Source of the DNA: Siphonodentalium dalli
Lineage: Eukaryota; Mollusca; Scaphopoda; Gadilida; Siphonodentaliidae
DNA length: 64,000 nt
Assembly (NCBI GenBank): GCA_032622095.1
Contig: CP136061.1
Location: 251,297,582-251,361,581, forward strand
Direction: 5' to 3'
Shown here: positions 32,139 through 64,000 of the stretch, one piece after another
How the letters are laid out: each line of letters begins with the position of its first letter
Position numbering within the stretch: position 1 is the first letter of the stretch
The notes under the pieces: generated by a model
Database searches by the model: none
What the model was told of the DNA's origin: nothing
Seen by the model: the letters and a program-made list of their open reading frames with translations, nothing else
Position numbers and translations under genes: made by a program

Positions 32139-32170
32139 AACAGTGGAGTTATGTCCGTAATTCCATTTTA

Positions 32171-33196: not shown

Positions 33197-33199
33197 TTA

Positions 33200-33738: not shown

Positions 33739-34078
33739 TTTAAATTACAAGTGGTACGTTTTCCCGAAAATAATTAGATCGTGCAAATGACACATGCATT
33801 AATAGGATTTTGATCGGCAGATATCGATGTTTTGAATTTGATTTGAAAATATTTATTGTCACCTACACCAGACTTTCCGGAAATAACATTCTCACATTGT
33901 GAAAAATATCTGGGGATTCACATCGATGACCAGGGCGAAATTTGAAAAACATGTCAGCACCACCAGCAAAGCACCAACATTAGCAAAGCACCACCATTAG
34001 CAAAGCACCAACATTAGCAAAGCACCACCATTAGCAAAGCACCACCATTAGCAAAGCCAATCAGATTCTTGGAATCGT

Positions 34079-34396
34079 ATGCAGAACTTTCACGAACTAA
34101 ACTCAGAAACATTCACTAGACGTTACTCCTCAATGGTGCGACCAATTATTGATTATGGACATTGTATATGGAGCCCTCATCTGCTTAAACTTTCTAGGCC
34201 ATTAGAAAGTGTGCAGAGGCGAGCGACACGCATGGTTCCGTGGCTGCGGAAATATTCATATGAAGATAGACTCTCTATCCTTAGGCTAATGTCCCTTAAG
34301 TATAGGCGATTACGTGGCGACCTAATAGAGGTATACAAAATAAAGAGTGGGCATTACAACATCATAGACGAAACGCTATTCGCTGATGCGACATAA
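34079..34396 (+). pseudogene. LINE RT C-terminal region (105 codons), copy 1
   Basis: The translation includes SSMVRPIIDYGHCIWSPHL, SVQRRATRMVPWL, SYEDRLSILRLMSLKYRRL and RGDLIEVYKI. This is the conserved region after the RT fingers/palm in jockey/CR1-group LINEs. Upstream, QILGIVCRTFT is in another frame, so there is a frameshift at about 34075. The segment stops at TLFADAT, where the homologous continuation (MRHKYAPTRGHS) is in the next frame. It is a decayed ORF2 fragment with no catalytic YADD/FADD box. The same 105 residues recur unchanged at 43159-43476. Confidence 0.88.
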
Positions 34397-34622
34397 GTAT
34401 GCACCAACCAGAGGCCATTCGTGTAAAATGATGATCGAACACTGCAATAAAGATGTAAGAAAATACTTTTTTACACTGAGAATTCGACCAATCTGGAATA
34501 GGCTACCAAATGCGGTCGTTAGTGCTGAAACTTTAAACCAGTTCAAGGCATTGTTGAAATGCGTAAGCACCGGATCTAAGAGTCGGTCAGACTCGTTCCG
34601 TGAAATATATGATACAATGTAG
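34386..34622 (+). pseudogene. LINE ORF2 C-terminal tail (78 codons), copy 1
   Basis: MRHKYAPTRGHSCKM, DVRKYFFTLRIRPIWNRLP and a final NQFK segment match the usual C-terminal tail of jockey/CR1-group ORF2 (RGHS...FF..R....WN.LP.....A..L..FK). It is shifted one frame relative to 34079-34396. This tail is the only LINE-coding portion present in all modules of the array. Confidence 0.88.
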
Positions 34623-35026
34623 AATATATATTACACAGACTATATATAACAAATGATGATATGTGTATGGCCACAGAGGATCGGAGCCGAACATATCCGA
34701 GCTCCTCTACCCTGGCATCCAATTGCTAATAAATATAAGTATCAGATATGGTTTTTAATTCAGATGTATTGTAGAAGTTGCTGTTTAAGTGTGGCTGTTG
34801 TGGTGGCTATGGTCTCGCAGTATGGGGTAAGATAATTATGAGAAACGATCAGTAGATGAGATAATTATTGTGTATATACTGTCTCAAACAGGCACACAAT
34901 TCAGTGTTTCACCAAACAGACGATCATTTGTTCAGAGACAATGGTCACGTTAAGTTCATCCAAACGATAAAGATCGTCCATTTTTGCGTTTCCCAAGCGG
35001 TGGATAATAAAGAGAGTCCATGTTTT

Positions 35027-35155
35027 AGTTATCTCCACTGACATCGTGGGGTACATGGGTACCTGGATGTCTATTTTGAACCCCTCGGTTCCGCCTCTTG
35101 TTCAAAATAGACAGGTATTAAATATCCATGTACCCCGATGTTGCTGAAGATAACT
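35027..35155. repeat. Inverted repeat at the LINE-satellite junction
   Basis: Arms of about 55 bp: AGTTATCTCCACTGACATCG, GGGGTACATGG and GTCTATTTTGAAC, mirrored by GTTCAAAATAGACAG, CCATGTACCCC and CGATGTTGCTGAAGATAACT. It separates a lone diverged satellite unit (34966-35026) from the main block. It is repeated in every complete module (for example near 39347, 44107, 48387, 53950, 58267 and 59950), and only its last ~36 bp remain at 62488-62523. Confidence 0.88.
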
Positions 35156-38100
35156 AATATCGCCCATCTTTTCGTTTCCCGAACGGTAGATAATAAAGAG
35201 CGTCCATGTTTTCATTTCCCGAACGGTAGATAATAAAGAGCGTCGATGTTTTCGTTTCCCGAACGGTAGATAATAAAGATAACAAAGAGCTTCCATGTTT
35301 TAGTTTCCCGGAAGGTAGATAATAAAGAGCGTCCATGTTTTAGTTTCCCGAACGGTAGATAATAAAGAGCGTCCATGTTTTAGTTTCCCGAACGGTAGAT
35401 AATTAAGAGCGTCGATGTTTTCGTTTCTCGAACTGTATATCATAAAGATAATAAAGAGCGTCCATGTTTTCGTTTCCCGAACGGTAGATAATAAAGAGCG
35501 TCCATGTTTTCGTTTCTCGAATTGTAGATCATAAAGCTAATAAAGAGCGTCGATGTTTTCGTTTCTCGAACTGTAGATAATAAAGATAATAAAGAGCGTC
35601 CATGTTTTCGTTTCTCGAACGGTAGATAATAAAGAAAATAAAGAGCGTCCATGTTTTCGTTTCTCGAACTGTAGATAATAAAGGGCGTCCATGTTTTCGT
35701 TTCCCGAACGGTATATGTAGGTGATAACGATAATAAAGGGCGTCCATGTTTTCGTTTCTCGAACTGTAGATAATAAGAAAATAAAGAGCGTCCATGTTTT
35801 CGTTTCTCGAACTGTAGATAATAAAGGGCGTCCATGTTTTCGTTTCCCGAACGGTATATGTAGATGATACCGATAATAAAGGGCGTCCATGTTTTCGTTT
35901 CCCGAACTGTAGATAATAAAGAAAATAAAGAGCGTCCATGTTTTCGTTTCTCGAACTGTAGATAATAAAGAGCGTCCATGTTTTCGTTTCCCGAACGGTA
36001 TATGTAGGTGATAACGATAATAAAGGGCGTCCATGTTTTCGTTTCTCGAACTGTAGATGATAATGATAATAAAGAGCGTCCATGTTTTCGTTTCCCGAAC
36101 GGTATATGTAGATGATACTGATAATAAAGGGCGTCCATGTTTTCGTTTCCCGAACTGTAGATGATAAAGATAATAAAGAGCGTCCATGTTTTCGTTTCCC
36201 GGACGGTAGATAATAAAGAGCGTCCTTGTTTTCGTTTCCCGAACGGTAGATAATAAAGAGCGTCCACGTTTTCGTTTCCCGAACGGTAGATAATTAAGAG
36301 CGTCGATGTTTTCGTTTCTCGAACTGTGGATAATAAAGATAATAAAGAGCGTCCCTGTTTTCGTTTCCCGGACGGTAGATGATCAAGATAATAAAGAGCG
36401 TCCATGTTTTCGTTTCTCGAACTGTAGATAATGAAGATAATAAAGAGCGTCCATGTTTTCGTTTCTCGAACTGTAGATGATAAAGATAATAAAGAGCGTC
36501 CATGTTTTCGTTTCCCGAAAGGCAGATAATAACGAGCGCCCATGTCTTCGTTTCCCGAACAGTAGATAATAAAGAGCGTCGATGTTTTCGTTTCTCGAAC
36601 TGTAGATAATAAAGATAATAAAGAGCGTCCAAGTTTTCGTTTCTTGAACTGTGGATAATAAAGATAATAAAGGGCGTCCATGTTTTCGTTTCCCGAACGG
36701 CATATGTAGATTATACCGATAATAAAGGGCGTCCATGTTTTCGTTTCTCGAATTGTAGGTGACAAAGATAATAAAGGGCGTCCATGTTTTCGTTTCCCGA
36801 ACTGTAGATGATAAAGATAATAAAGAGCGTCCATGTTTTAGTTTCTCGAACTGTAGATGATAAAGATAATAAAGAGCGTCCATGTTTTCGTTTCCCGAAC
36901 GGTAGATAATAAAGAGCGTCCATGTTTTCGTTTCTCGAATTGTAGATCATAAAGATAATAAAGAGCGTCGATGTTTTCGTTTCTCGAACTGTAGATAATA
37001 AAGAAAATAAAGAGCGTCCATGTTTTCGTTTTCTCGAACTGTAGATAATAAAGGGCGTCCATGTTTTCGTTTCCCGAACGGTATATTTAGGTGATAACGA
37101 TAATAAATGGCGTCCATGTTTTCGTTTCTCGAACTGTAGATGATAAAGATAATAAAGAGCGTCCATGTTTTCGTTTCCCGAACGGTAGATAATAAAGAGC
37201 GCCCATGTATTCGTTTCCCGAACGGTAGATAATAAAGAGCGTCGATGTTTTCGTTTCTCGAACTGTAGATAATAAAGATAATAAAGAGCGTCCAAGTTTT
37301 CGTTTCTCGAACTGTGGATAATAAAGATAATAAAGGGCGTCCATGTTTTCGTTTCCCGAACGGTATATGTAGATGATACCGATAATAAAGGGCGTCCATG
37401 TTTTCGTTTCTCGAACTGTAGATGATAAAGATAATAAAGAGCGTCCATGTTTTCGTTTCTCTAACTGTAGGTGATAAAGATAATAAAGGGCGTCCATGTT
37501 TTCGTTTCCCGAACTGTAGATGATAAAGATAATAAAGAGCGTCCATGTTTTAGTTTCTCGAAATGTAGATGATAAAGATAATAAAGAGCGTCCATGTTTT
37601 CGTTTCACGAACTGTAGATAATAAAGATAGTAAAGAGCGTCCATGTTTTCGTTTCCCGAACTGTAGATGATAAAGATAATAAAGAGCGTCCATGTTTTCG
37701 TTTCACGAACTGTAGGTAATAAAGATAATAAAGAGCGTCCATGTTTTCGTTTCCCGAACGGTAGATAATAAAGAGCGTCCATGTTTTCGTTTGTCGAACG
37801 GTAGATGATAAAGATAATAAAGAGCGTCCATGTTTTCGTTTCCCGGACGGTAGATGATAAAGATAATAAAGAGCGTCCATGTTTTCGTTTCTCGAACTGT
37901 AGATAATAAAGGGCGTCCATGTTTTCGTTTCCCGGACGGTAGATGATAAAATAATAAAGAGCGTCTATGTTTTCGTTTCTCGAACTGTAGATAATAAAGG
38001 GCGTCCATGTTTTCGTTTTCCGGAGGGTAGATGATAAAGATAATAAAGAGCGTCCATCTTTTCCTTTCTCGAACTGTAGATAATAAAGAGCGTCCATGTT

Positions 38101-38455
38101 TTCGTTTCCCGGACGGTAGATGATAAAGATAATAAAGAGCATCCATGTTTTCGTTTCCCGAACTGTAGATAATAAAGGGCGTCCATGTTTTCGTTTTCCG
38201 GACGGTAGATGATAAAGATAATAAAGAGCGTCGATGTTTTCGTTTCTCGAACTGTAGATGATAAAGATAATAAAGAGCGTCCATGTTTTCGTTTCCCGAA
38301 AGTTAGATAATACAGATAATAAAGAGCGTCCATGTTTTCGTTTCCCGAACGGTAGATAATAAAGATAATAAAGAGCGTCCATGTTTTCGTTTCTCGAACG
38401 GTAGATAATAAAGAGCGTCCATGTTTTAGTTCCCGAACGTTAGATAATACATACA
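35156..38455. repeat. 40/49/55-bp satellite, block S1
   Basis: The units share GCGTCCATGTTTTCGTTTCC, a GAACGGTA/GAACTGTA part and an AT-rich linker. Three main lengths are 40 bp (AGATAATAAAGA linker), 49 bp (extra GATAATAAA) and 55 bp (TATGTAGGTGATAACGAT or similar). All are 1 modulo 3. The minus strand therefore cycles through MDALYYLPFGKRK, HGRSLLSTVRETK and TWTLFIIYRSGNEN in every frame without stops, giving long but spurious ORFs. Rare 48-, 41- and 38-bp units break the frames. Confidence 0.97.
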
Positions 38456-39474
38456 CTTCTTAATTATGTTCGTTTATACACGTTTTCAACGTAAAACTGA
38501 GGGATGCATTTATTGATTTTCGCGATATCCGTGTCATACAAATGAGTTGTCATCCCCCTCTTTTTGGCCATTTTCAGGCGCTACGCGAGATTCACAGCCC
38601 TCTGCTAACTTGTATATACTCGGCATTCGGGGTTGATTCGGAGTATACAAAATAAAGAGGGGGCATTACAACATCATAGACGAAACGCTATTCGCTGATG
38701 CGACATAAGTATGCACCAACCAGAGGCCATTCGTGTAAAATGATGATCGAACACTGCAATAAAGATGTAAGAAAATACTTTTTTACACTGAGAATTCGAC
38801 CAATCTGGAATAGGCTACCAAATGCGGTCGTTAGTGCTGAAAATTTAAACCAGTTCAAGGAATTGTTGAAATGCGTAAGCACCGGAACTAAGAGTCGGTC
38901 AGACTCGTTCCGTGAAATATATGATACAATGTAGAATATATATTACACAGACTATATATCACAAATGATGATATGTGTATGGCCACAGAGGATCGGAGCC
39001 GAACATATCCGAGCTCCTCTACCCTGGCATCCAATTGCTAATAAATATAAGTATATCAGATATGGTTTTTAATTCAGATGTATTGTAGAAGTTGCTGTTT
39101 AAGTGTGGCTGTTGTGGTGGCTATGGTCTCGCAGTATGGGGTAAGATAATTATGAGAAACGGTCAGTAGATGAGATAATTATTGTGTATATACTGTCTCA
39201 AACAGGCACACAGTTCAGTGTTTCACCAAACAGACGATCATTTGTTCAGAGACAATGGTCACGTTAAGTTCATCCAAACGATAAAGATCGTCCATTTTTG
39301 CGTTTCCCAAGCGGTGGATAATAAAGAGAGTCCATGTTTTAGTTATCTCCACTGACATCGTGGGGTACATGGGTACCTGGGTGTCTATTTTGAACCCCTC
39401 GGTTCCGCCTCTTGTTCAAAATAGACAGGTATTAAATCTCCATGTACCCCGATGTTGCTGAAGATAACTAATAT
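38456..39474 (+). repeat. Module L', copy 1 (LINE tail plus spacer)
   Basis: About 185 bp of unique sequence (TACACTTCTTAATTATG, CGATATCCGTGTCATACAAA, CATTTTCAGGCGCTACGCGA) joins the LINE at GTATACAAAATAAAGAG. This is a shorter LINE piece than in module L. The LINE tail ORF (38698-38934), its 3' UTR, the diverged satellite unit and the inverted repeat follow in the same order as in L. Near-inverted GTATATACTCG/CGGAGTATAC flanks the junction. Confidence 0.9.
38698..38934 (+). pseudogene. LINE ORF2 C-terminal tail, module L' copy 1
   Basis: Same 78 codons as 34386-34622 with a few replacements (ENLNQFKELL, STGTKSRSD). The upstream RT part present in module L is absent here. Confidence 0.85.
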
Positions 39475-42400
39475 CGCCCATCTTTTCGTTTCCCGAACGG
39501 TAGATAATAAAGAGCGTCCATGTTTTCATTTCCCGAACGGTAGATAATAAAGAGCGTCGATGTTTTCGTTTCCCGAACGGTAGATAATAAAGATAACAAA
39601 GAGCGTCCATGTTTTCGTTTCCCGAACGGTAGATAATAAAGAGCGTCCATGTTTTAGTTTCCCGAACGGTAGATAATTAAGAGCGTCGATGTTTTCGTTT
39701 CTCGAACTGTAGATGATAAAGGTAATAAAGAGCGTCCATGTTTTCGTTTCCCGAACGGTAGATAATAAAGATAATAAAGAGCGTCTATGTTTTCGTTTCC
39801 CGGACGGTAGATAATAAAGAGCGTCCATGTTTTCGTTTCCCGAACGGTAGATAATAAAGAGCGTCCATGTTTTCGTTTCCCGAACTGTAGGTGATAAAGA
39901 TAATAAAGGGCGTCCATGTTTTCGTTTCCCGAACTGTAGATGATAAAGATAATAAAGAGCGTCCATGTTTTAGTTTCTCGAACTGTAGATGATAAAGATA
40001 ATAAAGAGCGTCGATGTTTTCGTTTCCCGAACGGTAGATAATAAAGAGCGTCCATGTTTTCGTTTCTCGAATTGTAGATCATAAAGATAATAAAGAGCGT
40101 CGATGTTTTCGTTTCTCGAACTGTAGATAATAAAGATAATAAAGAGCGTCCATGTTTTCGTTTCCCGAACGGTAGATAATAAAGAGCGTCCATGTTTTCG
40201 TTTCTCGAATTGTAGATCATAAAGATAATAAAGAGCGTCGATGTTTTCGTTTCTCGAACTGTAGATAATAAAGATAATAAAGAGCGTCCATGTTTTCGTT
40301 TCTCGAACGGTAGATAATAAAGAAAATAAAGAGCGTCCATGTTTTCGTTTCTCGAACTGTAGATAATAAAGGGCGTCCATGTTTTCGTTTCCCGAACGGT
40401 ATATGTAGGTGATAACGATAATAAAGGGCGTCCATGTTTTCGTTTCTCGAACTGTAGATAATAAGAAAATAAAGAGCGTCCATGATTTCGTTTCTCGAAC
40501 TGTAGATAATAAAGGGCGTCCATGTTTTCGTTTCCCGAACGGTATATGTAGATGATACCGATAATAAAGGGCGTCCATGTTTTCGTTTCCCGAACTGTAG
40601 ATAATAAAGAAAATAAAGAGCGTCCATGTTTTCGTTTCTCGAACTGTAGATAATAAAGGGCGTCCATGTTTTCGTTTCCCGAACGGTATATGTAGGTGAT
40701 AACGATAATAAAGGGCGTCCATGTTTTCGTTTCTCGAACTGTAGATGATAATGATAATAAAGAGCGTCCATGTTTTCGTTTCCCGAACGGTATATGTAGA
40801 TGATACCGATAATAAAGGGCGTCCATGTTTTCGTTTCCCGAACTGTAGATGATAAAGATAATAAAGAGCGTCCATGTTTTCGTTTCCCGGACGGTAGATA
40901 ATAAAGAGCGTCCATGTTTTCGTTTCCCGAACGGTCGATAATAAAGAGCGTCCACGTTTTCGTTTCCCGAACGGTAGATAATTAAGAGCGTCGATGTTTT
41001 CGTTTCTCGAACTGTGGATAATAAAGATAATAAAGAGCGTCCATGTTTTCGTTTCCCGGACGGTAGATGATCAAGATAATAAAGAGCGTCCATGTTTTCG
41101 TTTCTCGAACTGTAGATAATGAAGATAATAAAGAGCGTCCATGTTTTCGTTTCTCGAACTGTAGATGATAAAGATAATAAAGAGCGTCCATGTTTTCGTT
41201 TCCCGGAAGGTAGATAATAACGAGCGCCCATGTCTTCGTTTCCCGAACAGTAGATAATAAAGAGCGTCGATGTTTTCGTTTCTCGAACTGTAGATAATAA
41301 AGATAATAAAGAGCGTCCAAGTTTTCGTTTCTTGAACTGTGGATAATAAAGATAATAAAGGGCGTCCATGTTTTCGTTTCCCGAACGGTATATGTAGATT
41401 ATACCGATAATAAAGGGCGTCCATGTTTTCGTTTCTCGAATTGTAGGTGATAAAGATAATAAAGGGCGTCCATGTTTTCGTTTACCGAACTGTAGATGAT
41501 AAAGATAATAAAGAGCGTCCATGTTTTAGTTTCCCGAACTGTAGATGATAAAGATAATAAAGAGCGTCCATGTTTTCGTTTCTCGAATTGTAGATCATAA
41601 AGATAATAAAGAGCGTCGATGTTTTCGTTTCTCGAACTGTAGATAATAAAGAAAATAAAGAGCGTCCATGTTTTCGTTTTCTCGAACAGTAGATAATAAA
41701 GGGCGTCCATGTTTTCGTTTCCCGAACGGTATATGTAGGTGATAACGATAATAAATGGCGTCCATGTTTTCGTTTCTCGAACTGTAGATGATAAAGATAA
41801 TAAAGAGCGTCCATGTTTTCGTTTCCCGAACGGTAGATAATAAAGAGCGCCCATGTATTCGTTTCCCGAACGGTAGATAATAAAGAGCGTCGATGTTTTC
41901 GTTTCTCGAACTGTAGATAATAAAGAAAATAAAGAGCGTCCAAGTTTTCGTTTCTCGAACTGTGGATAATAAAGATAATAAAGGGCGTCCATGTTTTCGT
42001 TTCCCGAACGGTATATGTAGATGATACCGATAATAAAGGGCGTCCATGTTTTCGTTTCTCGAACTGTAGATGATAAAGATAATAAAGAGCGTCCATGTTT
42101 TCGTTTCTCTAACTGTAGGTGATAAAGATAATAAAGGGCGTCCATGTTTTCGTTTCCCGAACTGTAGATGATAAAGATAATAAAGAGCGTCCATGTTTTA
42201 GTTTCTCGAAATATAGATGATAAAGATAATAAAGAGCGTCCATGTTTTCGTTTCACGAACTGTAGATAATAAAGATAGTAAAGAGCGTCCATGTTTTCGT
42301 TTCTCGAACTGTAGATGATAAAGATAATAAAGAGCGTCCATGTTTTCGTTTCACGAACTGTAGGTAATAAAGATAATAAAGAGCGTCCATGTTTTCGTTT

Positions 42401-42989
42401 CCCGAACGGTAGATAATAAAGAGCGTCCATGTTTTCGTTTCCCGAACGGCATATGTAGATTATACCGATAATAAAGGGCGTCCATGTTTTCGTTTCTCGA
42501 ATTGTAGGTGATAAAGATAATAAAGGGCGTCCATGTTTTCGTTTCCCGAACTGTAGATGATAAAGATAATAAAGAGCGTCCATGTTTTAGTTTCTCGAAC
42601 TGTAGATGATAAAGATAATAAAGAGCGTCCATGTTTTCGTTTCTCGAATTGTAGATCATAAAGATAATAAAGAGCGTCGATGTTTTCGTTTCTCGAACTG
42701 TAGATAATAAAGAAAATAAAGAGCGTCCATGTTTTCGTTTTCTCGAACTGTAGATAATAAAGGGCGTCCATGTTTTCGTTTCCCGAACGGTATATTTAGG
42801 TGATAACGATAATAAATGGCGTCCATGTTTTCGTTTCTCGAACTGTAGATGATAAAGATAATAAAGAGCGTCCATGTTTTCGTTTCCCGAACGGTAGATA
42901 ATAAAGAGCGCCCATGTATTCGTTTCCCGAACGGTAGATAATAAAGAGCGTCGATGTTTTCGTTTCTCGAACTGTAGATAATAAAATAA
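39475..42989. repeat. 40/49/55-bp satellite, block S2
   Basis: Same satellite as S1. Minus-strand open frames reach 622 codons (39654-41522) because no unit type contains a stop. It ends abruptly at 42989, in the middle of a linker, where module L copy 2 begins. Confidence 0.97.
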
Positions 42990-43158
42990 CTGGGGATTCA
43001 CATCGATGACCAGGGCGAAATTTGAAAAACATGTCAGCACCACCAGCAAAGCACCAACATTAGCAAAGCACCACCATTAGCAAAGCACCAACATTAGCAA
43101 AGCACCACCATTAGCAAAGCACCACCATTAGCAAAGCCAATCAGATTCTTGGAATCGT

Positions 43159-43476
43159 ATGCAGAACTTTCACGAACTAAACTCAGAAACATTCACTAGA
43201 CGTTACTCCTCAATGGTGCGACCAATTATTGATTATGGACATTGTATATGGAGCCCTCATCTGCTTAAACTTTCTAGGCCATTAGAAAGTGTGCAGAGGC
43301 GAGCGACACGCATGGTTCCGTGGCTGCGGAAATATTCATATGAAGATAGACTCTCTATCCTTAGGCTAATGTCCCTTAAGTATAGGCGATTACGTGGCGA
43401 CCTAATAGAGGTATACAAAATAAAGAGTGGGCATTACAACATCATAGACGAAACGCTATTCGCTGATGCGACATAA
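43159..43476 (+). pseudogene. LINE RT C-terminal region, copy 2
   Basis: Translation identical to 34079-34396. It marks very recent duplication, not constraint, because the surrounding non-coding sequence is equally unchanged. Confidence 0.88.
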
Positions 43477-43702
43477 GTATGCACCAACCAGAGGCCATTC
43501 GTGTAAAATGATGATCGAACACTGCAATAAAGATGTAAGAAAATACTTTTTTACACTGAGAATTCGACCAATCTGGAATAGGCTACCAAATGCGGTCGTT
43601 AGTGCTGAAACTTTAAACCAGTTCAAGGCATTGTTGAAATGCGTAAGCACCGGATCTAAGAGTCGGTCAGACTCGTTCCGTGAAATATATGATACAATGT
43701 AG
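43466..43702 (+). pseudogene. LINE ORF2 C-terminal tail, module L copy 2
   Basis: Translation identical to 34386-34622, in the same shifted frame relative to the preceding RT segment. Confidence 0.88.
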
Positions 43703-44235
43703 AATATATATTACACAGACTATATATAACAAATGATGATATGTGTATGGCCACAGAGGATCGGAGCCGAACATATCCGAGCTCCTCTACCCTGGCATCC
43801 AATTGCTAATAAATATAAGTATCAGATATGGTTTTTAATTCAGATGTATTGTAGAAGTTGCTGTTTAAGTGTGGCTGTTGTGGTGGCTATGGTCTCGCAG
43901 TATGGGGTAAGATAATTATGAGAAACGATCAGTAGATGAGATAATTATTGTGTATATACTGTCTCAAACAGGCACACAATTCAGTGTTTCACCAAACAGA
44001 CGATCATTTGTTCAGAGACAATGGTCACGTTAAGTTCATCCAAACGATAAAGATCGTCCATTTTTGCGTTTCCCAAGCGGTGGATAATAAAGAGAGTCCA
44101 TGTTTTAGTTATCTCCACTGACATCGTGGGGTACATGGGTACCTGGATGTCTATTTTGAACCCCTCGGTTCCGCCTCTTGTTCAAAATAGACAGGTATTA
44201 AATATCCATGTACCCCGATGTTGCTGAAGATAACT

Positions 44236-47200
44236 AATATCGCCCATCTTTTCGTTTCCCGAACGGTAGATAATAAAGAGCGTCCATGTTTTCATTTCCC
44301 GAACGGTAGATAATAAAGAGCGTCGATGTTTTCGTTTCCCGAACGGTAGATAATAAAGATAACAAAGAGCTTCCATGTTTTAGTTTCCCGGAAGGTAGAT
44401 AATAAAGAGCGTCCATGTTTTAGTTTCCCGAACGGTAGATAATAAAGAGCGTCCATGTTTTAGTTTCCCGAACGGTAGATAATTAAGAGCGTCGATGTTT
44501 TCGTTTCTCGAACTGTATATCATAAAGATAATAAAGAGCGTCCATGTTTTCGTTTCCCGAACGGTAGATAATAAAGAGCGTCCATGTTTTCGTTTCTCGA
44601 ATTGTAGATCATAAAGCTAATAAAGAGCGTCGATGTTTTCTTTTCTCGAACTGTAGATAATAAAGATAATAAAGAGCGTCCATGTTTTCGTTTCTCGAAC
44701 GGTAGATAATAAAGAAAATAAAGAGCGTCCATGTTTTCGTTTCTCGAACTGTAGATAATAAAGGGCGTCCATGTTTTCGTTTCCCGAACGGTATATGTAG
44801 GTGATAACGATAATAAAGGGCGTCCATGTTTTCGTTTCTCGAACTGTAGATAATAAGAAAATAAAGAGCGTCCATGTTTTCGTTTCTCGAACTGTAGATA
44901 ATAAAGGGCGTCCATGTTTTCGTTTCCCGAACGGTATATGTAGATGATACCGATAATAAAGGGCGTCCATGTTTTCGTTTCCCGAACTGTAGATAATAAA
45001 GAAAATAAAGAGCGTCCATGTTTTCGTTTCTCGAACTGTAGATAATAAAGAGCGTCCATGTTTTCGTTTCCCGAACGGTATATGTAGGTGATAACGATAA
45101 TAAAGGGCGTCCATGTTTTCGTTTCTCGAACTGTAGATGATAATGATAATAAAGAGCGTCCATGTTTTCGTTTCCCGAACGGTATATGTAGATGATACCG
45201 ATAATAAAGGGCGTCCATGTTTTCGTTTCCCGAACTGTAGATGATAAAGATAATAAAGAGCGTCCATGTTTTCGTTTCCCGGACGGTAGATAATAAAGAG
45301 CGTCCTTGTTTTCGTTTCCCGAACGGTAGATAATAAAGAGCGTCCACGTTTTCGTTTCCCGAACGGTAGATAATTAAGAGCGTCGATGTTTTCGTTTCTC
45401 GAACTGTGGATAATAAAGATAATAAAGAGCGTCCCTGTTTTCGTTTCCCGGACGGTAGATGATCAAGATAATAAAGAGCGTCCATGTTTTCGTTTCTCGA
45501 ACTGTAGATAATGAAGATAATAAAGAGCGTCCATGTTTTCGTTTCTCGAACTGTAGATGATAAAGATAATAAAGAGCGTCCATGTTTTCGTTTCCCGAAA
45601 GGCAGATAATAACGAGCGCCCATGTCTTCGTTTCCCGAACAGTAGATAATAAAGAGCGTCGATGTTTTCGTTTCTCGAACTGTAGATAATAAAGATAATA
45701 AAGAGCGTCCAAGTTTTCGTTTCTTGAACTGTGGATAATAAAGATAATAAAGGGCGTCCATGTTTTCGTTTCCCGAACGGCATATGTAGATTATACCGAT
45801 AATAAAGGGCGTCCATGTTTTCGTTTCTCGAATTGTAGGTGACAAAGATAATAAAGGGCGTCCATGTTTTCGTTTCCCGAACTGTAGATGATAAAGATAA
45901 TAAAGAGCGTCCATGTTTTAGTTTCTCGAACTGTAGATGATAAAGATAATAAAGAGCGTCCATGTTTTCGTTTCTCGAATTGTAGATCATAAAGATAATA
46001 AAGAGCGTCGATGTTTTCGTTTCTCGAACTGTAGATAATAAAGAAAATAAAGAGCGTCCATGTTTTCGTTTTCTCGAACTGTAGATAATAAAGGGCGTCC
46101 ATGTTTTCGTTTCCCGAACGGTATATTTAGGTGATAACGATAATAAATGGCGTCCATGTTTTCGTTTCTCGAACTGTAGATGATAAAGATAATAAAGAGC
46201 GTCCATGTTTTCGTTTCCCGAACGGTAGATAATAAAGAGCGCCCATGTATTCGTTTCCCGAACGGTAGATAATAAAGAGCGTCGATGTTTTCGTTTCTCG
46301 AACTGTAGATAATAAAGATAATAAAGAGCGTCCAAGTTTTCGTTTCTCGAACTGTGGATAATAAAGATAATAAAGGGCGTCCATGTTTTCGTTTCCCGAA
46401 CGGTATATGTAGATGATACCGATAATAAAGGGCGTCCATGTTTTCGTTTCTCGAACTGTAGATGATAAAGATAATAAAGAGCGTCCATGTTTTCGTTTCT
46501 CTAACTGTAGGTGATAAAGATAATAAAGGGCGTCCATGTTTTCGTTTCCCGAACTGTAGATGATAAAGATAATAAAGAGCGTCCATGTTTTAGTTTCTCG
46601 AAATGTAGATGATAAAGATAATAAAGAGCGTCCATGTTTTCGTTTCACGAACTGTAGATAATAAAGATAGTAAAGAGCGTCCATGTTTTCGTTTCCCGAA
46701 CTGTAGATGATAAAGATAATAAAGAGCGTCCATGTTTTCGTTTCACGAACTGTAGGTAATAAAGATAATAAAGAGCGTCCATGTTTTCGTTTCCCGAACG
46801 GTAGATAATAAAGAGCGTCCATGTTTTCGTTTGTCGAACGGTAGATGATAAAGATAATAAAGAGCGTCCATGTTTTCGTTTCCCGGACGGTAGATGATAA
46901 AGATAATAAAGAGCGTCCATGTTTTCGTTTCTCGAACTGTAGATAATAAAGGGCGTCCATGTTTTCGTTTCCCGGACGGTAGATGATAAAATAATAAAGA
47001 GCGTCTATGTTTTCGTTTCTCGAACTGTAGATAATAAAGGGCGTCCATGTTTTCGTTTTCCGGAGGGTAGATGATAAAGATAATAAAGAGCGTCCATCTT
47101 TTCCTTTCTCGAACTGTAGATAATAAAGAGCGTCCATGTTTTCGTTTCCCGGACGGTAGATGATAAAGATAATAAAGAGCATCCATGTTTTCGTTTCCCG

Positions 47201-53057: not shown

Positions 53058-54077
53058 CTTCTTAATTATGATCGTTTATACACGTTTTCAACGTAAAACT
53101 GAGGGATGCATTTATTGATTTTCGCGATATCCGTGTCATACAAATGAGTTGTCATCCCCCTCTTTTTGGCCATTTTCAGGCGCTACGCGAGATTCACAGC
53201 CCTCTGCTAACTTGTATATACTCGGCATTCGGGGTTCATTCGGAGTATACAAAATAAAGAGGGGGCATTACAACATCATAGACGAAACGCTATTCGCTGA
53301 TGCGACATAAGTATGCACCAACCAGAGGCCATTCGTGTAAAATGATGATCGAACACTGCAATAAAGATGTAAGAAAATACTTTTTTACACTGAGAATTCG
53401 GACCAATCTGGAATAGGCTACCAAATGCGGTCGTTAGTGCTGAAAATTTAAACCAGTTCAAGGAATTGTTGAAATGCGTAAGCACCGGAACTAAGAGTCG
53501 GTCAGACTCGTTCCGTGAAATATATGATACAATGTAGAATATATATTACACAGACTATATATCACAAATGATGATATGTGTATGGCCACAGAGGATCGGA
53601 GCCGAACATATCCGAGCTCCTCTACCCTGGCATCCAATTGCTAATAAATATAAGTATATCAGATATGGTTTTTAATTCAGATGTATTGTAGAAGTTGCTG
53701 TTTAAGTGTGGCTGTTGTGGTGGCTATGGTCTCGCAGTATGGGGTAAGATAATTATGAGAAACGGTCAGTAGATGAGATAATTATTGTGTATATACTGTC
53801 TCAAACAGGCACACAGTTCAGTGTTTCACCAAACAGACGATCATTTGTTCAGAGACAATGGTCACGTTAAGTTCATCCAAACGATAAAGATCGTCCATTT
53901 TTGCGTTTCCCAAGCGGTGGATAATAAAGAGAGTCCATGTTTTAGTTATCTCCACTGACATCGTGGGGTACATGGGTACCTGGGTGTCTATTTTGAACCC
54001 CTCGGTTCCGCCTCTTGTTCAAAATAGACAGGTATTAAATCTCCATGTACCCCGATGTTGCTGAAGATAACTAATAT
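53058..54077 (+). repeat. Module L', copy 3
   Basis: Matches copy 2 at offset 5,562-5,563. It is one base longer because of an extra G in AGAATTCGGACC (about 53400). Confidence 0.92.
53300..53537 (+). pseudogene. LINE ORF2 C-terminal tail, module L' copy 3, frameshifted
   Basis: Same tail as 38698-38934 but with a one-base insertion at about 53400, after FTLRI, that shifts the rest of the frame. The other four L' copies lack it, so this copy shows no selection for the tail. Confidence 0.85.
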
Positions 54078-57000
54078 CGCCCATCTTTTCGTTTCCCGAA
54101 CGGTAGATAATAAAGAGCGTCCATGTTTTCATTTCCCGAACGGTAGATAATAAAGAGCGTCGATGTTTTCGTTTCCCGAACGGTAGATAATAAAGATAAC
54201 AAAGAGCGTCCATGTTTTCGTTTCCCGAACGGTAGATAATAAAGAGCGTCCATGTTTTAGTTTCCCGAACGGTAGATAATTAAGAGCGTCGATGTTTTCG
54301 TTTCTCGAACTGTAGATGATAAAGGTAATAAAGAGCGTCCATGTTTTCGTTTCCCGAACGGTAGATAATAAAGATAATAAAGAGCGTCTATGTTTTCGTT
54401 TCCCGGACGGTAGATAATAAAGAGCGTCCATGTTTTCGTTTCCCGAACGGTAGATAATAAAGAGCGTCCACGTTTTCGTTTCTCGAATTGTAGATCATAA
54501 AGATAATAAAGAGCGTCGATGTTTTCGTTTCTCGAACTGTAGATAATAAAGATAATAAAGAGCGTCCATGTTTTCGTTTCTCGAACGGTAGATAATAAAG
54601 AAAATAAAGAGCGTCCATGTTTTCGTTTCTCGAACTGTAGATAATAAAGGGCGTCCATGTTTTCGTTTCCCGAACGGTATATGTAGGTGATAACGATAAT
54701 AAAGGGCGTCCATGTTTTCGTTTCTCGAACTGTAGATAATAAGAAAATAAAGAGCGTCCATGATTTCGTTTCTCGAACTGTAGATAATAAAGGGCGTCCA
54801 TGTTTTCGTTTCCCGAACGGTATATGTAGATGATACCGATAATAAAGGGCGTCCATGTTTTCGTTTCCCGAACTGTAGATAATAAAGAAAATAAAGAGCG
54901 TCCATGTTTTCGTTTCTCGAACTGTAGATAATAAAGGGCGTCCATGTTTTCGTTTCCCGAACGGTATATGTAGGTGATAACGATAATAAAGGGCGTCCAT
55001 GTTTTCGTTTCTCGAACTGTAGATGATAATGATAATAAAGAGCGTCCATGTTTTCGTTTCCCGAACGGTATATGTAGATGATACCGATAATAAAGGGCGT
55101 CCATGTTTTCGTTTCCCGAACTGTAGATGATAAAGATAATAAAGAGCGTCCATGTTTTCGTTTCCCGGACGGTAGATAATAAAGAGCGTCCATGTTTTCG
55201 TTTCCCGAACGGTCGATAATAAAGAGCGTCCACGTTTTCGTTTCCCGAACGGTAGATAATTAAGAGCGTCGATGTTTTCGTTTCTCGAACTGTGGATAAT
55301 AAAGATAATAAAGAGCGTCCATGTTTTCGTTTCCCGGACGGTAGATGATCAAGATAATAAAGAGCGTCCATGTTTTCGTTTCTCGAACTGTAGATAATGA
55401 AGATAATAAAGAGCGTCCATGTTTTCGTTTCTCGAACTGTAGATGATAAAGATAATAAAGAGCGTCCATGTTTTCGTTTCCCGGAAGGTAGATAATAACG
55501 AGCGCCCATGTCTTCGTTTCCCGAACAGTAGATAATAAAGAGCGTCGATGTTTTCGTTTCTCGAACTGTAGATAATAAAGATAATAAAGAGCGTCCAAGT
55601 TTTCGTTTCTTGAACTGTGGATAATAAAGATAATAAAGGGCGTCCATGTTTTCGTTTCCCGAACGGTATATGTAGATTATACCGATAATAAAGGGCGTCC
55701 ATGTTTTCGTTTCTCGAATTGTAGGTGATAAAGATAATAAAGGGCGTCCATGTTTTCGTTTACCGAACTGTAGATGATAAAGATAATAAAGAGCGTCCAT
55801 GTTTTAGTTTCCCGAACTGTAGATGATAAAGATAATAAAGAGCGTCCATGTTTTCGTTTCTCGAACTGTAGATCATAAAGATAATAAAGAGCGTCGATGT
55901 TTTCGTTTCTCGAACTGTAGATAATAAAGAAAATAAAGAGCGTCCATGTTTTCGTTTTCTCGAACAGTAGATAATAAAGGGCGTCCATGTTTTCGTTTCC
56001 CGAACGGTATATGTAGGTGATAACGATAATAAATGGCGTCCATGTTTTCGTTTCTCGAACTGTAGATGATAAAGATAATAAAGAGCGTCCATGTTTTCGT
56101 TTCCCGAACGGTAGATAATAAAGAGCGCCCATGTATTCGTTTCCCGAACGGTAGATAATAAAGAGCGTCGAGGTTTTCGTTTCTCGAACTGTAGATAATA
56201 AAGATAATAAAGAGCGTCCAAGTTTTCGTTTCTCGAACTGTGGATAATAAAGATAATAAAGGGCGTCCATGTTTTCGTTTCCCGAACGGTATATGTAGAT
56301 GATACCGATAATAAAGGGCGTCCATGTTTTCGTTTCTCGAACTGTAGATGATAAAGATAATAAAGAGCGTCCATGTTTTCGTTTCTCTAACTGTAGGTGA
56401 TAAAGATAATAAAGGGCGTCCATGTTTTCGTTTCCCGAACTGTAGATGATAAAGATAATAAAGAGCGTCCATGTTTTAGTTTCTCGAAATATAGATGATA
56501 AAGATAATAAAGAGCGTCCATGTTTTCGTTTCACGAACTGTAGATAATAAAGATAGTAAAGAGCGTCCATGTTTTCGTTTCTCGAACTGTAGATGATAAA
56601 GATAATAAAGAGCGTCCATGTTTTCGTTTCACGAACTGTAGGTAATAAAGATAATAAAGAGCGTCCATGTTTTCGTTTCCCGAACGGTAGATAATAAAGA
56701 GCGTCCATGTTTTCGTTTGTCGAACGGTAGATGATAAAGATAATAAAGAGCGTCCATGTTTTCGTTTCCCGGACGGTAGATGATAAAGATAATAAAGAGC
56801 GTCCATGTTTTCGTTTCTCGAACTGTAGATAATAAAGGGCGTCCATGTTTTCGTTTCCCGGACGGTAGATGATAAAATAATAAAGAGCGTCTATGTTTTC
56901 GTTTCTCGAACTGTAGATAATAAAGGGCGTCCATGTTTTCGTTTTCCGGAGGGTAGATGATAAAGATAATAAAGAGCGTCCATGTTTTCGTTTCTCGAAC

Positions 57001-57381
57001 TGTAGATAATAAAGAGTGTCCATGTTTTCGTTTCCCGGACGGTAGATGATAAAGATAATAAAGAGCATCCATGTTTTCGTTTCCCGAACTGTAGATAATA
57101 AAGGGCGTCCATGTTTTCGTTTTCCGGACGGTAGATGATAAAGATAATAAAGAGCGTCGATGTTTTCGTTTCTCGAACTGTAGATGATAAAGATAATAAA
57201 GAGCGTCCAAGTTTTCGTTTCCCGAAAGGTAGATAATACAGATAATAAAGAGCGTCCATGTTTTCGTTTCCCGAACGGTAGATAATAAAGATAATAAAGA
57301 GCGTCCATGTTTTCGTTTCTCGAACGGTCGATAATAAAGAGCGTCCATGTTTTAGTTCCCGAACGTTAGATAATACATACA
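54078..57381. repeat. 40/49/55-bp satellite, block S5
   Basis: Same satellite, with stretches parallel to S2/S4 at the start and to S3/S4 at the end (offset about 4,324 from the S4 end). Minus-strand open frames reach 543 codons. Confidence 0.95.
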
Positions 57382-58400
57382 CTTCTTAATTATGATCGTT
57401 TATACACGTTTTCAACGTAAAACTGAGGGATGCATTTATTGATTTTCGCGATATCCGTGTCATACAAATGAGTTGTCATCCCCCTCTTTTTGGCCATTTT
57501 CAGGCGCTACGCGAGATTCACAGCCCTCTGCTAACTTGTATATACTCGTGATTCGGGGTTCATTCGGAGTATACAAAATAAAGAGGGGGCATTACAACAT
57601 CATAGACGAAACGCTATTCGCTGATGCGACATAAGTATGCACCAACCAGAGGCCATTCGTGTAAAATGATGATCGAACACTGCAATAAAGATGTAAGAAA
57701 ATACTTTTTTACACTGAGAATTCGACCAATCTGGAATAGGCTACCAAATGCGGTCGTTAGTGCTGAAAATTTAAACCAGTTCAAGGAATTGTTGAAATGC
57801 GTAAGCACCGGAACTAAGAGTCGGTCAGACTCGTTCCGTGAAATATATGATACAATGTAGAATATATATTACACAGACTATATATCACAAATGATGATAT
57901 GTGTATGGCCACAGAGGATCGGAGCCGAACATATCCGAGCTCCTCTACCCTGGCATCCAATTGCTAATAAATATAAGTATATCAGATATGGTTTTTAATT
58001 CAGATGTATTGTAGAAGTTGCTGTTTAATTGTGGCTGTTGTGGTGGCTATGGTCTCGCAGTATGGGGTAAGATAATTATGAGAAACGGTCAGTAGATGAG
58101 ATAATTATTGTGTATATACTGTCTCAAACAGGCACACAATTCAGTGTTTCACCAAACAGACGATCATTTGTTCAGAGACAATGGTCACGTTAAGTTCATC
58201 CAAACGATAAAGATCGTCCATTTTTGCGTTTCCCAAGCGGTGGATAATAAAGAGAGTCCATGTTTTAGTTATCTCCACTGACATCGTGGGGTACATGGGT
58301 ACCTGGATGTCTATTTTGAACCCCTCGGTTCCGCCTCTTGTTCAAAATAGACAGGTATTAAATCTCCATGTACCCCGATGTTGCTGAAGATAACTAATAT
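57382..58400 (+). repeat. Module L', copy 4 (with LINE tail 57624-57860)
   Basis: Same order of parts as the other L' modules. A private variant CTCGTGATTCGG replaces CTCGGCATTCGG near 57546. Confidence 0.92.
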
Positions 58401-59063
58401 CGCCCATCTTTTCGTTTCCCGAACGGTAGATAATAAAGAGCGTCCATGTTTTCATTTCCCGAACGGTAGATAATAAAGAGCGTCGATGTTTTCGTTTCCC
58501 GAACGGTAGATAATAAAGATAACAAAGAGCGTCCATGTTTTCGTTTCCCGAACGGTAGATAATAAAGAGCGTCCATGTTTTAGTTTCCCGAACGGTAGAT
58601 AATTAAGAGCGTCGATGTTTTCGTTTCTCGAACTGTAGATGATAAAGGTAATAAAGAGCGTCCATGTTTTCGTTTCCCGAACGGTAGATAATAAAGATAA
58701 TAAAGAGCGTCTATGTTTTCGTTTCCCGGACGGTAGATAATAAAGAGCGTCCATGTTTTCGTTTCCCGAACGGTAGATAATAAAGAGCGTCCATGTTTTC
58801 GTTTCCCGGACGGTAGATGATAAAGATAATAAAGAGCATCCATGTTTTCGTTTCTCGAACTGTAGATAATAAAGATAATAAAGAGCGTCCATGTTTTCGT
58901 TTCCCGAAAGGTAGATAATAAAGATAATAAAGAGCGTCCATGTTTTCGTTTCCCGAACGGTAGATAATAAAATTAATAAAGAGCGTCCATGTTTTCGTTT
59001 CTCGAACGGTAGATAATAAAGAGCGTCCATGTTTTAGTTCCCGAACGTTAGATAATACATACA
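58401..59063. repeat. 40/49/55-bp satellite, block S6 (short)
   Basis: Only about 660 bp, with the standard first units and the standard last units (ending GAACGTTAGATAATA). It is the product of a large internal contraction. Confidence 0.95.
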
Positions 59064-60083
59064 CTTCTTAATTATGATCGTTTGTACACGTTTTCAACGT
59101 AAAACTGAGGGATGCATTTATTGATTTTCGCGATATCCGTGTCATACAAATGAGTTGTCATCCCCCTCTTTTTGGCCATTTTCAGGCGCTACGCGAGATT
59201 CACAGCCCTCTGCTAACTTGTATATACTCGGCATTCGGGGTTCATTCGGAGTATACAAAATAAAGAGGGGGCATTACAACATCATAGACGAAACGCTATT
59301 CGCTGATGCGACATAAGTATGCACCAACCAGAGGCCATTCGTGTAAAATGATGATCGAACACTGCAATAAAGATGTAAGAAAATACTTTTTTACACTGAG
59401 AATTCGACCAATCCGGAATAGGCTACCAAATGCGGTCGTTAGTGCTGAAAATTTAAACCAGTTCAAGGAATTGTTGAAATGCGTAAGCACCGGAACTAAG
59501 AGTCGGTCAGACTCGTTCCGTGAAATATATGATACAATGTAGAATATATATTACACAGACTATATATCACAAATGATGATATGTGTATGGCCACAGAGGA
59601 TCGAAGCCGAACATATCCGAGCTACTCTACCCTGGCATCCAATTGCTAATAAATATAAGTATATCAGATATGGGTTTTTAATTCAGATGTATTGTAGAAG
59701 TTGCTGTTTAAGTGTGGCTGTTGTGGTGGCTATGGTCTCGCAGTATGGGGTAAGATAATTATGAGAAACGATCAGTAGATGAGATAATTATTGTGTATAT
59801 ACTGTCTCAAACAGGCACACAATTCAGTGTTTCACCAAACAGACGATCATTTGTTCAGAGACAATGGCCACGTTAAGTTCATCCAAACGATCAAGATCGT
59901 CCATTTTTGCGTTTCCCAAGCGGTGGATAATAAAGAGAGTCCATGTTTTAGTTATCTCCACTGACATCGTGGGGTACATGGGTACCTGGCTGTCTATTTT
60001 GAACCCCTCGGTTCCGCCTCTTGTTCAAAATAGACAGGTATTAAATCTCCATGTACCCCGATGTTGCTGAAGATAACTAATAT
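59064..60083 (+). repeat. Module L', copy 5 (with LINE tail 59306-59542)
   Basis: Similar to the other L' modules, with private substitutions (CCAATCCGGAATAGG, ATCGAAGCCG, GAGCTACTCT). The LINE tail frame 59306-59542 is open. Confidence 0.92.
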
Positions 60084-62487
60084 CGCCCATCTTTTCGTTT
60101 CCCGAACGGTAGATAATAAAGAGCGTCCATGTTTTCATTTCCCGAACGGTAGATAATAAAGAGCGTCGATGTTTTCGTTTCCCGAACGGTAGATAATAAA
60201 GATAACAAAGAGCTTCCATGTTTTAGTTTCCCGGAAGGTAGATAATAAAGAGCGTCCATGTTTTAGTTTCCCGAACGGTAGATAATTAAGAGCGTCGATG
60301 TTTTCGTTTCTCGAACTGTAGATGATAAAGGTAATAAAGAGCGTCCATGTTTTCGTTTCCCGAACGGTAGATAATAAAGATAATAAAGAGCGTCTATGTT
60401 TTCGTTTCCCGAACGGTAGATAATAAATGGCGTCCATGTTTTCGTTTCCCGAACGGTAGATACTTAAGAGCGTCGATGTTTTCGTTTCTCGAACTGTAGA
60501 TAATGAAGATAATAAAGAGCGTCCATGTTTTCGTTTCTCGAATTGTAGATCATAAAGGTAATAAAGAGCGTCCATGTTTTCGTTTCTCGAACTGTAGATA
60601 ATGAAGATAATAAAGAGCGTCCATGTTTTCGTTTCTCGAATTGTAGATGATAAAGATAATAAAGAGCGTCGATGTTTTCGTTTCTCGAACTGTAGATAAT
60701 AAAGAAAATAAAGAGCGTCCATGTTTTCGTTTCCCGAACTGTAGATAATAAAGGGCGTCCATGTTTTCGTTTCCCGAACGGTATATGTAGGTGATAACGA
60801 TAATAAAGGGCGTCCATGTTTTCGTTTCTCGAACTGTAGATAATAAAGAAAATAAAGAGCGTCCATGTTTTCGTTTCTCGAACTGTAGATAATAAAGGGC
60901 GTCCATGTTTTCGTTTCCCGAACGGTATATGTAGATGATACCGATAATAAAGGGCGTCCATGTTTTCGTTTCCCGAACTGTAGATAATAAAGAAAATAAA
61001 GAGCGTCCATGTTTTCGTTTCTCGAACTGTAGATAATAAAGGGCGTCCATGTTTTCGTTTCCCGAACGGTATATGTAGGTGATAACGATAATAAAGGGCG
61101 GACATGTTTTCGTTTCTCGAACTGTAGATGATAATGATAATAAAGAGCGTCCATGTTTTCGTTTCCCGAACGGTATATGTAGATGATACCGATAATAAAG
61201 GGCGTCCATGTTTTCGTTTCCCGAACTGTAGATGATAAAGATAATAAAGAGCGTCCATGTTTTCGTTTCCCGGACGGTAGATAATAAAGAGCGTCCATGT
61301 TTTCGTTTCCCGAACGGTAGATAATAAAGAGCGTCCATGTTTTCGTTTCCCGAACGGTAGATACTTAAGAGCGTCGATGTTTTCGTTTCTCGAACTGTGG
61401 ATAATAAAGATAATAAAGAGCGTCCATGTTTTCGTTTCCCGGACGGTAGATGATCAAGATAATAAAGAGCGTCCATGTTTTCGTTTCTCGAACTGTAGAT
61501 AATGAAGATAATAAAGAGCGTCCATGTTTTCGTTTCTCGAACTGTAGATGATAAAGATAATAAAGAGCGTCCATGTTTTCGTTTCCCGAAAGGTAGATAA
61601 TAACGAGCGCCCATGTCTTCGTTTCCCGAACAGTAGATAATAAAGAGCGTCGATGTTTTCGTTTCTCGAACTGTAGATAATAAAGATAATAAAGAGCGTC
61701 CAAGTTTTCGTTTCTTGAACTGTGGATAATAAAGATAATAAAGGGCGTCCATGTTTTCGTTTCCCGAACGGTATATGTAGATTATACCGATAATAAAGGG
61801 CGTCCATGTTTTCGTTTCTCGAATTGTAGGTGATAAAGATAATAAAGGGCGTCCATGTTTTCGTTTCCCGAACTGTAGATGATAAAGATAATAAAGAGCG
61901 TCCATGTTTTAGTTTCTCGAACTGTAGATGATAAAGATAATAAAGAGCGTCCATGTTTTCGTTTCTCGAATTGTAGATGATAAAGATAATAAAGGGCGTC
62001 CATGTTTTCGTTTCCCGAACTGTAGATGATAAAGATAATAAAGAGCGTCCATGTTTTAGTTTCTCGAACTGTAGATGATAAAGATAATAAAGAGCGTCCA
62101 TGTTTTAGTTTCTCGAACTGTAGATGATAAAGATAATAAAGGGCGTCCATGTTTTCGTTTCCCGAACTGTAGATGATAAAGATAATAAAGAGCGTCCATG
62201 TTTTAGTTTCTCGAACTGTAGATGATAAAGATAATAAAGAGCGTCCATGTTTTAGTTTCTCGAACTGTAGATGATAAAGATAATAAAGAGCGTCGATGTT
62301 TTCGTTTCTCGAATTGTAGATCATAAAGATAATAAAGAGCGTCGATGTTTTCGTTTCTCGAACTGTAGATAATAAAGAAAATAAAGAGCGTCCATGTTTT
62401 CGTTTTCTCGAACTGTAGATAATAAAGGGCGTCCATGTTTTCGTTTCCCGAACGGTATATGTAGGTGATAACGATAATAAATGGCAT
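60084..62487. repeat. 40/49/55-bp satellite, block S7
   Basis: Same satellite. Near 61860-62290 it contains a local run of nearly identical 49-bp units, indicating recent small-scale amplification. Confidence 0.95.
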
Positions 62488-62523
62488 CCATGTACCCCGA
62501 TGTTGCTGAAGATAACTAATATC
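62488..62523. repeat. Remnant of a module (right end of the inverted repeat)
   Basis: ATCCATGTACCCCGATGTTGCTGAAGATAACT-type sequence, the last ~36 bp of the junction inverted repeat, is joined to satellite inside an AAATGGC linker. It shows a recombination that removed the LINE part of a module. Confidence 0.88.
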
Positions 62524-64000
62524 GCCCATCTTTTCGTTTCCCGAACGGTAGATAATAAAGAGCGTCCATGTTTTCATTTCCCGAACGGTAGATAATAAAG
62601 AGCGTCGATGTTTTCGTTTCCCGAACGGTAGATAATAAAGATAACAAAGAGCTTCCATGTTTTAGTTTCCCGGAAGGTAGATAATAAAGAGCGTCCATGT
62701 TTTAGTTTCCCGAACGGTAGATAATAAAGAGCGTCCATGTTTTAGTTTCCCGAACGGTAGATAATTAAGAGCGTCGATGTTTTCGTTTCTCGAACTGTAT
62801 ATCATAAAGATAATAAAGAGCGTCCATGTTTTCGTTTCCCGAACGGTAGATAATAAAGAGCGTCGATGTTTTCGTTTCTCGAATTGTAGATCATAAAGAT
62901 AATAAAGAGCGTCGATGTTTTCGTTTCTCGAACTGTAGATAATAAAGATAATAAAGAGCGTCCATGTTTTCGTTTCTCGAACGGTAGATAATAAAGAAAA
63001 TAAAGAGCGTCCATGTTTTCGTTTCTCGAACTGTAGATAATAAAGGGCGTCCATGTTTTCGTTTCCCGAACGGTATATGTAGGTGATAACGATAATAAAG
63101 GGCGTCCATGTTTACGTTTCTCGAACTGTAGATAATAAAGAAAATAAAGAGCGTCCATGTTTTCGTTTCTCGAACTGTAGATAATAAAGGGCGTCCATAT
63201 TTTCGTTTCCCGAACGGTATATGTAGATGATACCGATAATAAAGGGCGTCCATGTTTTCGTTTCCCGAACTGTAGATAATAAAGAAAATAAAGAGCGTCC
63301 ATGTTTTCGTTTCTCGAACTGTAGATAATAAAGGGCGTCCATGTTTTCGTTTCCCGAACGGTATATGTAGGTGATAACGATAATAAAGGGCGTCCATGTT
63401 TTCGTTTCTCGAACTGTAGATGATAATGATAATAAAGAGCGTCCATGTTTTCGTTTCCCGAACGGTATATGTAGATGATACCGATAATAAAGGGCGTCCA
63501 TGTTTTCGTTTCCCGAACTGTAGATGATAAAGATAATAAAGAGCGTCCATGTTTTCGTTTCCCGGACGGTAGATAATAAAGAGCGTCCATGTTTTCGTTT
63601 CCCGAACGGTAGATAATAAAGAGCGTCCACGTTTTCGTTTCCCGAACGGTAGATAATTAAGAGCGTCGATGTTTTCGTTTCTCGAACTGTGGATAATAAA
63701 GATAATAAAGAGCGTCCATGTTTTCGTTTCCCGGACGGTAGATAATCAAGATAATAAAGAGCGTCCATGTTTTCGTTTCCCGAAAGGTAGATAATAACGA
63801 GCGCCCATGTCTTCGTTTCCCGAACAGTAGATAATAAAGAGCGTCGATGTTTTCGTTTCTCGAACTGTAGATAATAAAGATAATAAAGAGCGTCCAAGTT
63901 TTCGTTTCTTGAACTGTGGATAATAAAGATAATAAAGGGCGTCCATGTTTTCGTTTCCCGAACGGTATATGTAGATTATACCGATAATAAAGGGCGTCCA
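62524..64000. repeat. 40/49/55-bp satellite, block S8 (runs off the window)
   Basis: Continues to the last base in the same register as S1/S3. The right end of the array is not seen. Confidence 0.95.

Follow-up and report, generated by a model that had tools for sequence, protein, structure and literature searches.

A LINE tail and an inverted repeat carried within a higher-order satellite array of Siphonodentalium dalli

The window analysed here, the whole stretch of 64,000 nucleotides of Siphonodentalium dalli DNA, contains from position 33903 to its end an array in which seven LINE-tail modules and one remnant are interspersed with eight satellite blocks, as established by self-comparison and module alignment. 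The array very probably arose by unequal exchange together with illegitimate tandem duplication, acting on a LINE-hairpin-satellite composite that had formed by chance, and the window would hold one edge of a young higher-order array. The initial annotation had proposed a higher-order satellite that includes a LINE 3' end in its repeat, and this proposal is borne out by a B-type junction that recurs in 5/5 cases, by a constant order of parts and by monomers that are far closer between blocks than between neighbours. Its module positions hold as well, since all eight starts lie no more than 7 bp from the recomputed ones. For the latter, A module starts were taken from BLAST and B module starts were placed by us at the satellite junction. 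The array is composed as follows, all parts on the forward strand:

33903-35163, forward: module A1, with LINE tail, 3' flank, diverged satellite units and inverted repeat; left edge of the array
35164-38449, forward: satellite block S1, 70 monomers, by satellite anchors
38450-39477, forward: module B1, in which 193 bp of non-LINE DNA precede a LINE that starts at the 34331 position; diverged units and inverted repeat follow
39478-42982, forward: satellite block S2, 75 monomers including a partial last one; ends at the duplication junction
42983-44243, forward: module A2, beginning at a LINE-satellite join with 3 bp in common (AAA)
44244-47489, forward: satellite block S3, 69 monomers
47490-48517, forward: module B2, by module alignment
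48518-53051, forward: satellite block S4, 96 monomers; apparent chimera with a 22-monomer duplication
53052-54080, forward: module B3, by module alignment
54081-57375, forward: satellite block S5, 70 monomers
57376-58403, forward: module B4, by module alignment
58404-59057, forward: satellite block S6, 14 monomers
59058-60086, forward: module B5, by module alignment
60087-62484, forward: satellite block S7, 51 monomers
62486-62525, forward: remnant R, the right end of the inverted repeat joined to a monomer with 7 bp in common (TCCATGT)
62526-64000, forward: satellite block S8, 32 monomers, running to the window end

Two types of module can be distinguished. In type A the LINE is present from 33903 onwards, and in type B 193 bp of other DNA precede a LINE that starts at the position equivalent to 34331. 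The LINE of A1 and A2 is 428 bp longer than that of the B modules, with a single difference between A1 and A2 within those 428 bp, while the 193-bp B fronts differ at two positions between B1 and B2 and at one between B5 and B2. As had been described, LINE tail, diverged satellite units, inverted repeat and satellite block follow one another in this order in all seven full modules; in the remnant, nothing is left but the inverted-repeat end and the satellite junction. The junction between inverted repeat and satellite is common to the seven full modules and the remnant. On the left side, A1 adjoins non-satellite DNA and a single satellite-to-module junction is shared by the five B modules, whereas A2 and the remnant each have one of their own. 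Junctions that differ between copies had been named beforehand as an observation against a common unit, and they do occur at these two of the eight left junctions, but not among the B modules. Within A1 the following parts were identified:

33965-34057, forward: 17-bp minisatellite of 5.5 copies inside the LINE, with a second copy at 43045-43137 in A2
34052-34396, forward: open LINE fragment of 114 amino acids from the post-RT region, with a 73-residue stretch in another frame at 34401-34619
34967-35030, forward: about 1.5 diverged satellite units, between LINE tail and inverted repeat
35027-35155, no strand assigned: 129-bp inverted repeat, a strong predicted hairpin

The LINE is frame-broken, and its tails are 98.6-100% identical across modules. 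Within the 833-835 bp common to both types, the A1 tail matches that of A2 exactly; no substitution separates B1, B2 and B3 over 835 bp (B3 has one added base), B4 and B5 carry 3 and 8 substitutions relative to B1, and A and B tails differ by 0.96-1.44%. On visual inspection, these differences can be placed in a conflict-free nested order: A, B5, B4 and finally B1-3. The tail is putatively CR1-like, and the identity of the segment as a LINE 3' end draws mainly on the pattern of its protein. Pfam searches, which covered two sets of 4 and 8 window frames as a subset of the open frames, returned no match above the cut-off for the LINE fragments (the second fragment came closest, with E = 0.024), and the sole tested window frame above the cut-off was a reverse transcriptase (RT) frame at 29105-30454. 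A LINE fragment matched this frame weakly by BLASTP, over 31 residues (E = 0.003, one comparison), and this match is the one computed indication of a CR1-like character. A comparison of the LINE with PDB chains gave no match (best E = 0.76), and the predicted fold of the 114-residue fragment has a mean pLDDT of 46.5. The 3' stem-loop that had been ascribed to the LINE is weaker than proposed, its fold being no better than that of shuffled sequences (z = -0.5; 56 of 200 shuffles equally stable). From frame reading, a LINE frame upstream of A1 seems to run on to about 33860, in non-satellite DNA.

The 129-bp inverted repeat, in contrast to that stem-loop, is confirmed by its predicted fold: the segment 35020-35160 reaches -61.3 kcal/mol (z = -9.3), and none of 200 shuffles was equally stable. 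It is possibly a MITE. A candidate TA target site was noted by eye, and beyond the array the window contains only chance-like short matches to the inverted repeat.

Satellite anchors number 485 on the plus strand, comprising 477 block monomers, 7 diverged units inside modules and one weak match at 27532 that was left out; at the same cut-off the minus strand of the window has none. The figure of 477 is an anchor count, and five terminal 71-bp "monomers" contain an extra shortened unit missed by the anchor. The satellite unit measures 40-55 bp, with anchor spacings inside blocks quantised at 49 (258 cases), 40 (145), 55 (49), 48 (9) and 41 bp (8). Five segments were considered as a source of the satellite and rejected: for LINE ORF, LINE 3' region, inverted repeat, B front and left flank (28600-33848), 31-77 of 100 letter shuffles score equally. 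Neighbouring monomers are clearly different from each other, with mean identities of 91.6-93.2% for adjacent monomers in the eight blocks; for all pairs inside blocks the means are 91.7-93.7%, with exact matches in 1.4-5.5% of them. Monomers aligned across blocks, however, are 96.8-99.9% identical and 29-96% exact (28 block pairs), which marks the arrangement as a higher-order repeat. Multi-monomer units are near-identical when in register, and a lag test covering three block pairs gave a single sharp best register for S3/S5 (0.986; median 0.918) and for S2/S4 (0.987; median 0.922). For S1/S3, lags 0 and -1 reached 0.958 each (median 0.918), a split expected from one missing monomer. The same transposable element fragment and the same junctions recur per unit, as in a composite tandem repeat that contains a transposable element. 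A higher-order repeat in the strict sense has a constant unit length; here intervals range from 1682 to 5562 bp and blocks from 14 to 96 monomers.

Module starts are separated by 4547, 4533, 4507, 5562, 4324, 1682 and 3428 bp. A base period near 4.5 kb, as suggested initially, was derived from the first four of these seven intervals and is not upheld by the other three; there is no fixed period. The first and third intervals are alike as a result of a tandem duplication of about 9 kb, and the second is the cut-off counterpart of the fourth. The second copy of this duplication is located as follows:

42983-51875, forward: second copy of the ~9-kb tandem duplication, the first copy being 33903-42982

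For the comparison of the copies the end of the second one was taken from BLAST (52183); the alignment places it at 51875, the value given here. The two copies differ by 15 substitutions in 8853 aligned bases. Six of these fall in a poorly aligned stretch (40151-40218), and the other nine correspond to a difference of about 0.1%. The copies also differ in length by stretches of 40, 187, 9 and 31 bp. At the join 42982/42983, satellite and LINE have only AAA in common, and an identity of 3 bp is insufficient to prove a mechanism.

Judged from its sequence, block S4 looks as if a B-type block had crossed over with an A-type block at a shift of 22 monomers. Its monomers 14-59 differ from S5 monomers 10-55 by 2 substitutions in 2188 bp, compared with 16 for S3 monomers 9-54, while monomers 60-95 differ from S3 monomers 33-68 by 3 substitutions in 1732 bp, compared with 16, as summed over the comparison track, for S5 monomers 34-69. 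Left of the switch, 16 of 18 informative sites side with S5, and right of it 14 of 15 side with S3 (Fisher p = 2e-6, with linked sites counted as independent); three of the 33 sites contradict a simple chimera. The switch lies somewhere between 51197 and 51343, and the register shift of 22 monomers amounts to 1061 bp. The same switch is present in S2 (57 monomers, 2 substitutions), which corresponds to S4 in the 9-kb duplication. Block S8 is closest to the A-type blocks S1 and S3 (99.3%), and the remnant in front of it is therefore probably derived from an A-type module. The earlier statement that the composite amplifies as one unit thus holds in part: the order of parts and the B junctions are constant, but the copied stretch varies by event, from A plus B in about 9 kb to a 22-monomer shift within a block.

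These data are best accommodated by a course of events in which a foldback element and a LINE copy truncated at its 5' end would have landed beside or within a small satellite, which would then have expanded. Comparison of the copies shows that module and block were subsequently multiplied as head-to-tail tandem copies. One step or more resembles an unequal exchange of misaligned blocks, with the change in S4 from S5-like to S3-like at a shift of 22 monomers, and at least one was the ~9-kb tandem duplication, with a near-blunt join at 42982/42983 and its left end at the array edge. The order of the older steps is one that we infer. Most likely, the LINE tail travels as a passenger: it is frame-broken and was presumably homogenised by the same copying as the satellite.

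Rolling-circle replication of an excised circle of module and block, with reinsertion, could in principle have produced LINE tails as uniform as those of B1-B3, without a substitution over 835 bp, and one left junction for five B modules. We regard it as improbable, although it is conceivable for older steps. A circle would predict equal units, but blocks range from 14 to 96 monomers (the A2 join clips S2, and the window end clips S8), the tails of B4 and B5 have departed from B1 by the substitutions given above, and the likeness of B1 and B2 is accounted for by the 9-kb duplication. That duplication might itself be in part an assembly artefact, with one haplotype falsely duplicated where the array begins, as its copies are so alike outside the one poorly aligned stretch. 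The length differences between the copies speak against this, however, as does the fact that they meet at a novel LINE-satellite join rather than through overlapping equal ends. Neither the other modules nor the chimera, for which the parents compared were S5 and S3, depend on this pair alone, and we consider an artefact unlikely.

If instead the satellite had been part of the 3' region of a LINE family and had spread with it, the modules would be separate insertions. Diverged satellite units do lie behind the LINE tail in every full module, and TCAST-like repeats are described inside a Tribolium CR1 element (PMC10218199). Yet one left junction in all five B modules is hardly expected from independent events, and the satellite consensus has no LINE similarity above letter shuffles, which makes this reading very improbable. 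Long higher-order arrays are typical of centromeres, and the array could be a functional centromere or another selected part of the chromosome. Block S1 (35164-38419) is indeed rich in CpG, with an observed/expected ratio of 2.12, as opposed to 0.84 in module A1 and 1.02 in 1-33848, so that no CpG loss is visible in the satellite. The CENP-B box, however, has no match in the window, where 0.39 would be expected by chance; many centromeres are without this box. A role of this kind seems rather remote to us. The pericentromeric or other heterochromatic location put forward in the initial annotation would be a putative one. Unequal exchange and illegitimate tandem duplication remain the preferred explanation.

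Searches in non-eukaryotic collections returned no confirmed relatives. One exact 33-base satellite pattern had no match in viral contigs and none in prokaryote genomes. For the 114-residue LINE fragment, 3 stretches in viral contigs and 33 in prokaryote genomes fit the peptide pattern, of which none was confirmed, and it had no confirmed relative in phages or in plasmids, the latter searched by DNA and protein. The second RT frame had no relative in viral contigs. Neither RNA families (at gathering score) nor tRNAs were found.

The array belongs to a known kind, as composite and LINE-derived satellites are already described in the sources considered (PMC9659126; PMC6947457). According to these descriptions, the chicken HinfI (SCR1) and Cen satellites derive from CR1 LINEs, including 3' UTR and partial ORF2, and they resemble the present array as tandem repeats with a LINE 3' region and partial ORF2. 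There, however, the LINE is the source of the satellite, whereas here it is one part and the main mass is a dissimilar short satellite. Composite tandem repeats visible in self-alignment dot plots are likewise described for ape sex chromosomes; compared with those units as described, the present unit is mostly a 40-55 bp satellite with a higher-order pattern of its own (PMC11168930). The satellite TCsat38 is presented as a dimeric higher-order repeat, and as in that account, diverged monomers are ordered here in multi-monomer units that are closer between copies (PMC10218199). Composite satellite monomers have also been traced to transposon graveyards, with duplication led by microhomology; as far as that description goes, transposable element remnants are reused within a tandem unit in both cases, as long, sharply bounded segments here and as multiple short stretches there (PMC12628747). 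Similarity to the higher-order organisation of alpha satellite extends to the same ordering of monomers. In repeats of the alpha-satellite type, diverged monomers form multi-monomer units whose copies are more alike. Unlike these, and unlike TCsat38 as it is outlined, the present units are of variable length and contain a non-satellite module.

The usual picture of satellite arrays is one of young centres and old edges. It is conceivable, though we think it doubtful, that this array extends outward where it meets non-satellite DNA, and that there the module with its cruciform-prone 129-bp inverted repeat may act as a break site that drives growth. The youngest duplications (A1/A2 and B1-B3) are indeed found on the left, at the edge, and divergence of the LINE tails increases rightward (B4, B5). 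Against this, only one array edge is contained in the window, the rightmost block S8 is 99.3% like the leftmost S1 and S3, and the 193-bp B fronts are without a gradient. If true, growth at the border would reverse the young-centre, old-edge picture and would make the hairpin module a testable break site. The array offers, in compact form, growth steps that can be told apart: a near-blunt tandem duplication, an apparent unequal exchange of known shift and a deletion remnant. Throughout these steps a LINE tail and a foldback element would have travelled with the satellite, whose turnover kept their copies alike.

The sequence to the left of the composite satellite array, which begins at 33903, carries several other tandem repeats, and a further one lies within the LINE part of the array itself:

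1-3006, 55-bp satellite, 54 copies, extending to the left end of the window
10983-12528, tandem array of a 95-bp unit
12746-12945, tandem array of a 20-bp unit
27546-28569, tandem array of a 68-bp unit
30993-31482, tandem array of a 15-bp unit
33965-34057, 17-bp minisatellite within the LINE, present in both A modules

A second retroelement is represented by an open frame of 449 amino acids on the minus strand (29105-30454), in which Pfam detects the reverse transcriptase domain RVT_1 (E = 1.4e-16). Immediately left of the array lies a long, MITE-like palindrome (33195-33615), imperfect (73%) and about 415 bp in length; related ends are found near 33163-33195 and 32173-32204. Two neighbouring stretches are probably dispersed elements: that at 33699-33747 recurs as copies of 38-50 bp near 23302, 23550, 28609 and 30493, and that at 33620-33666 has a second copy at 25171.

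Within the array, the non-LINE front of module B1 and the start of its LINE together form a perfect 10-bp inverted repeat (38554-38663; arms CCCCCTCTTT and AAAGAGGGGG). One arm contains a LINE position at which A and B modules carry different bases, possibly a templated change.

At the right end of the window, the remnant of the 129-bp inverted repeat and the satellite block S8 behind it (62486-64000) resemble A-type sequence, as represented by S1 and S3, the satellite blocks behind the two A modules. This likeness suggests a third A module on this right-hand side, most of which has been deleted.
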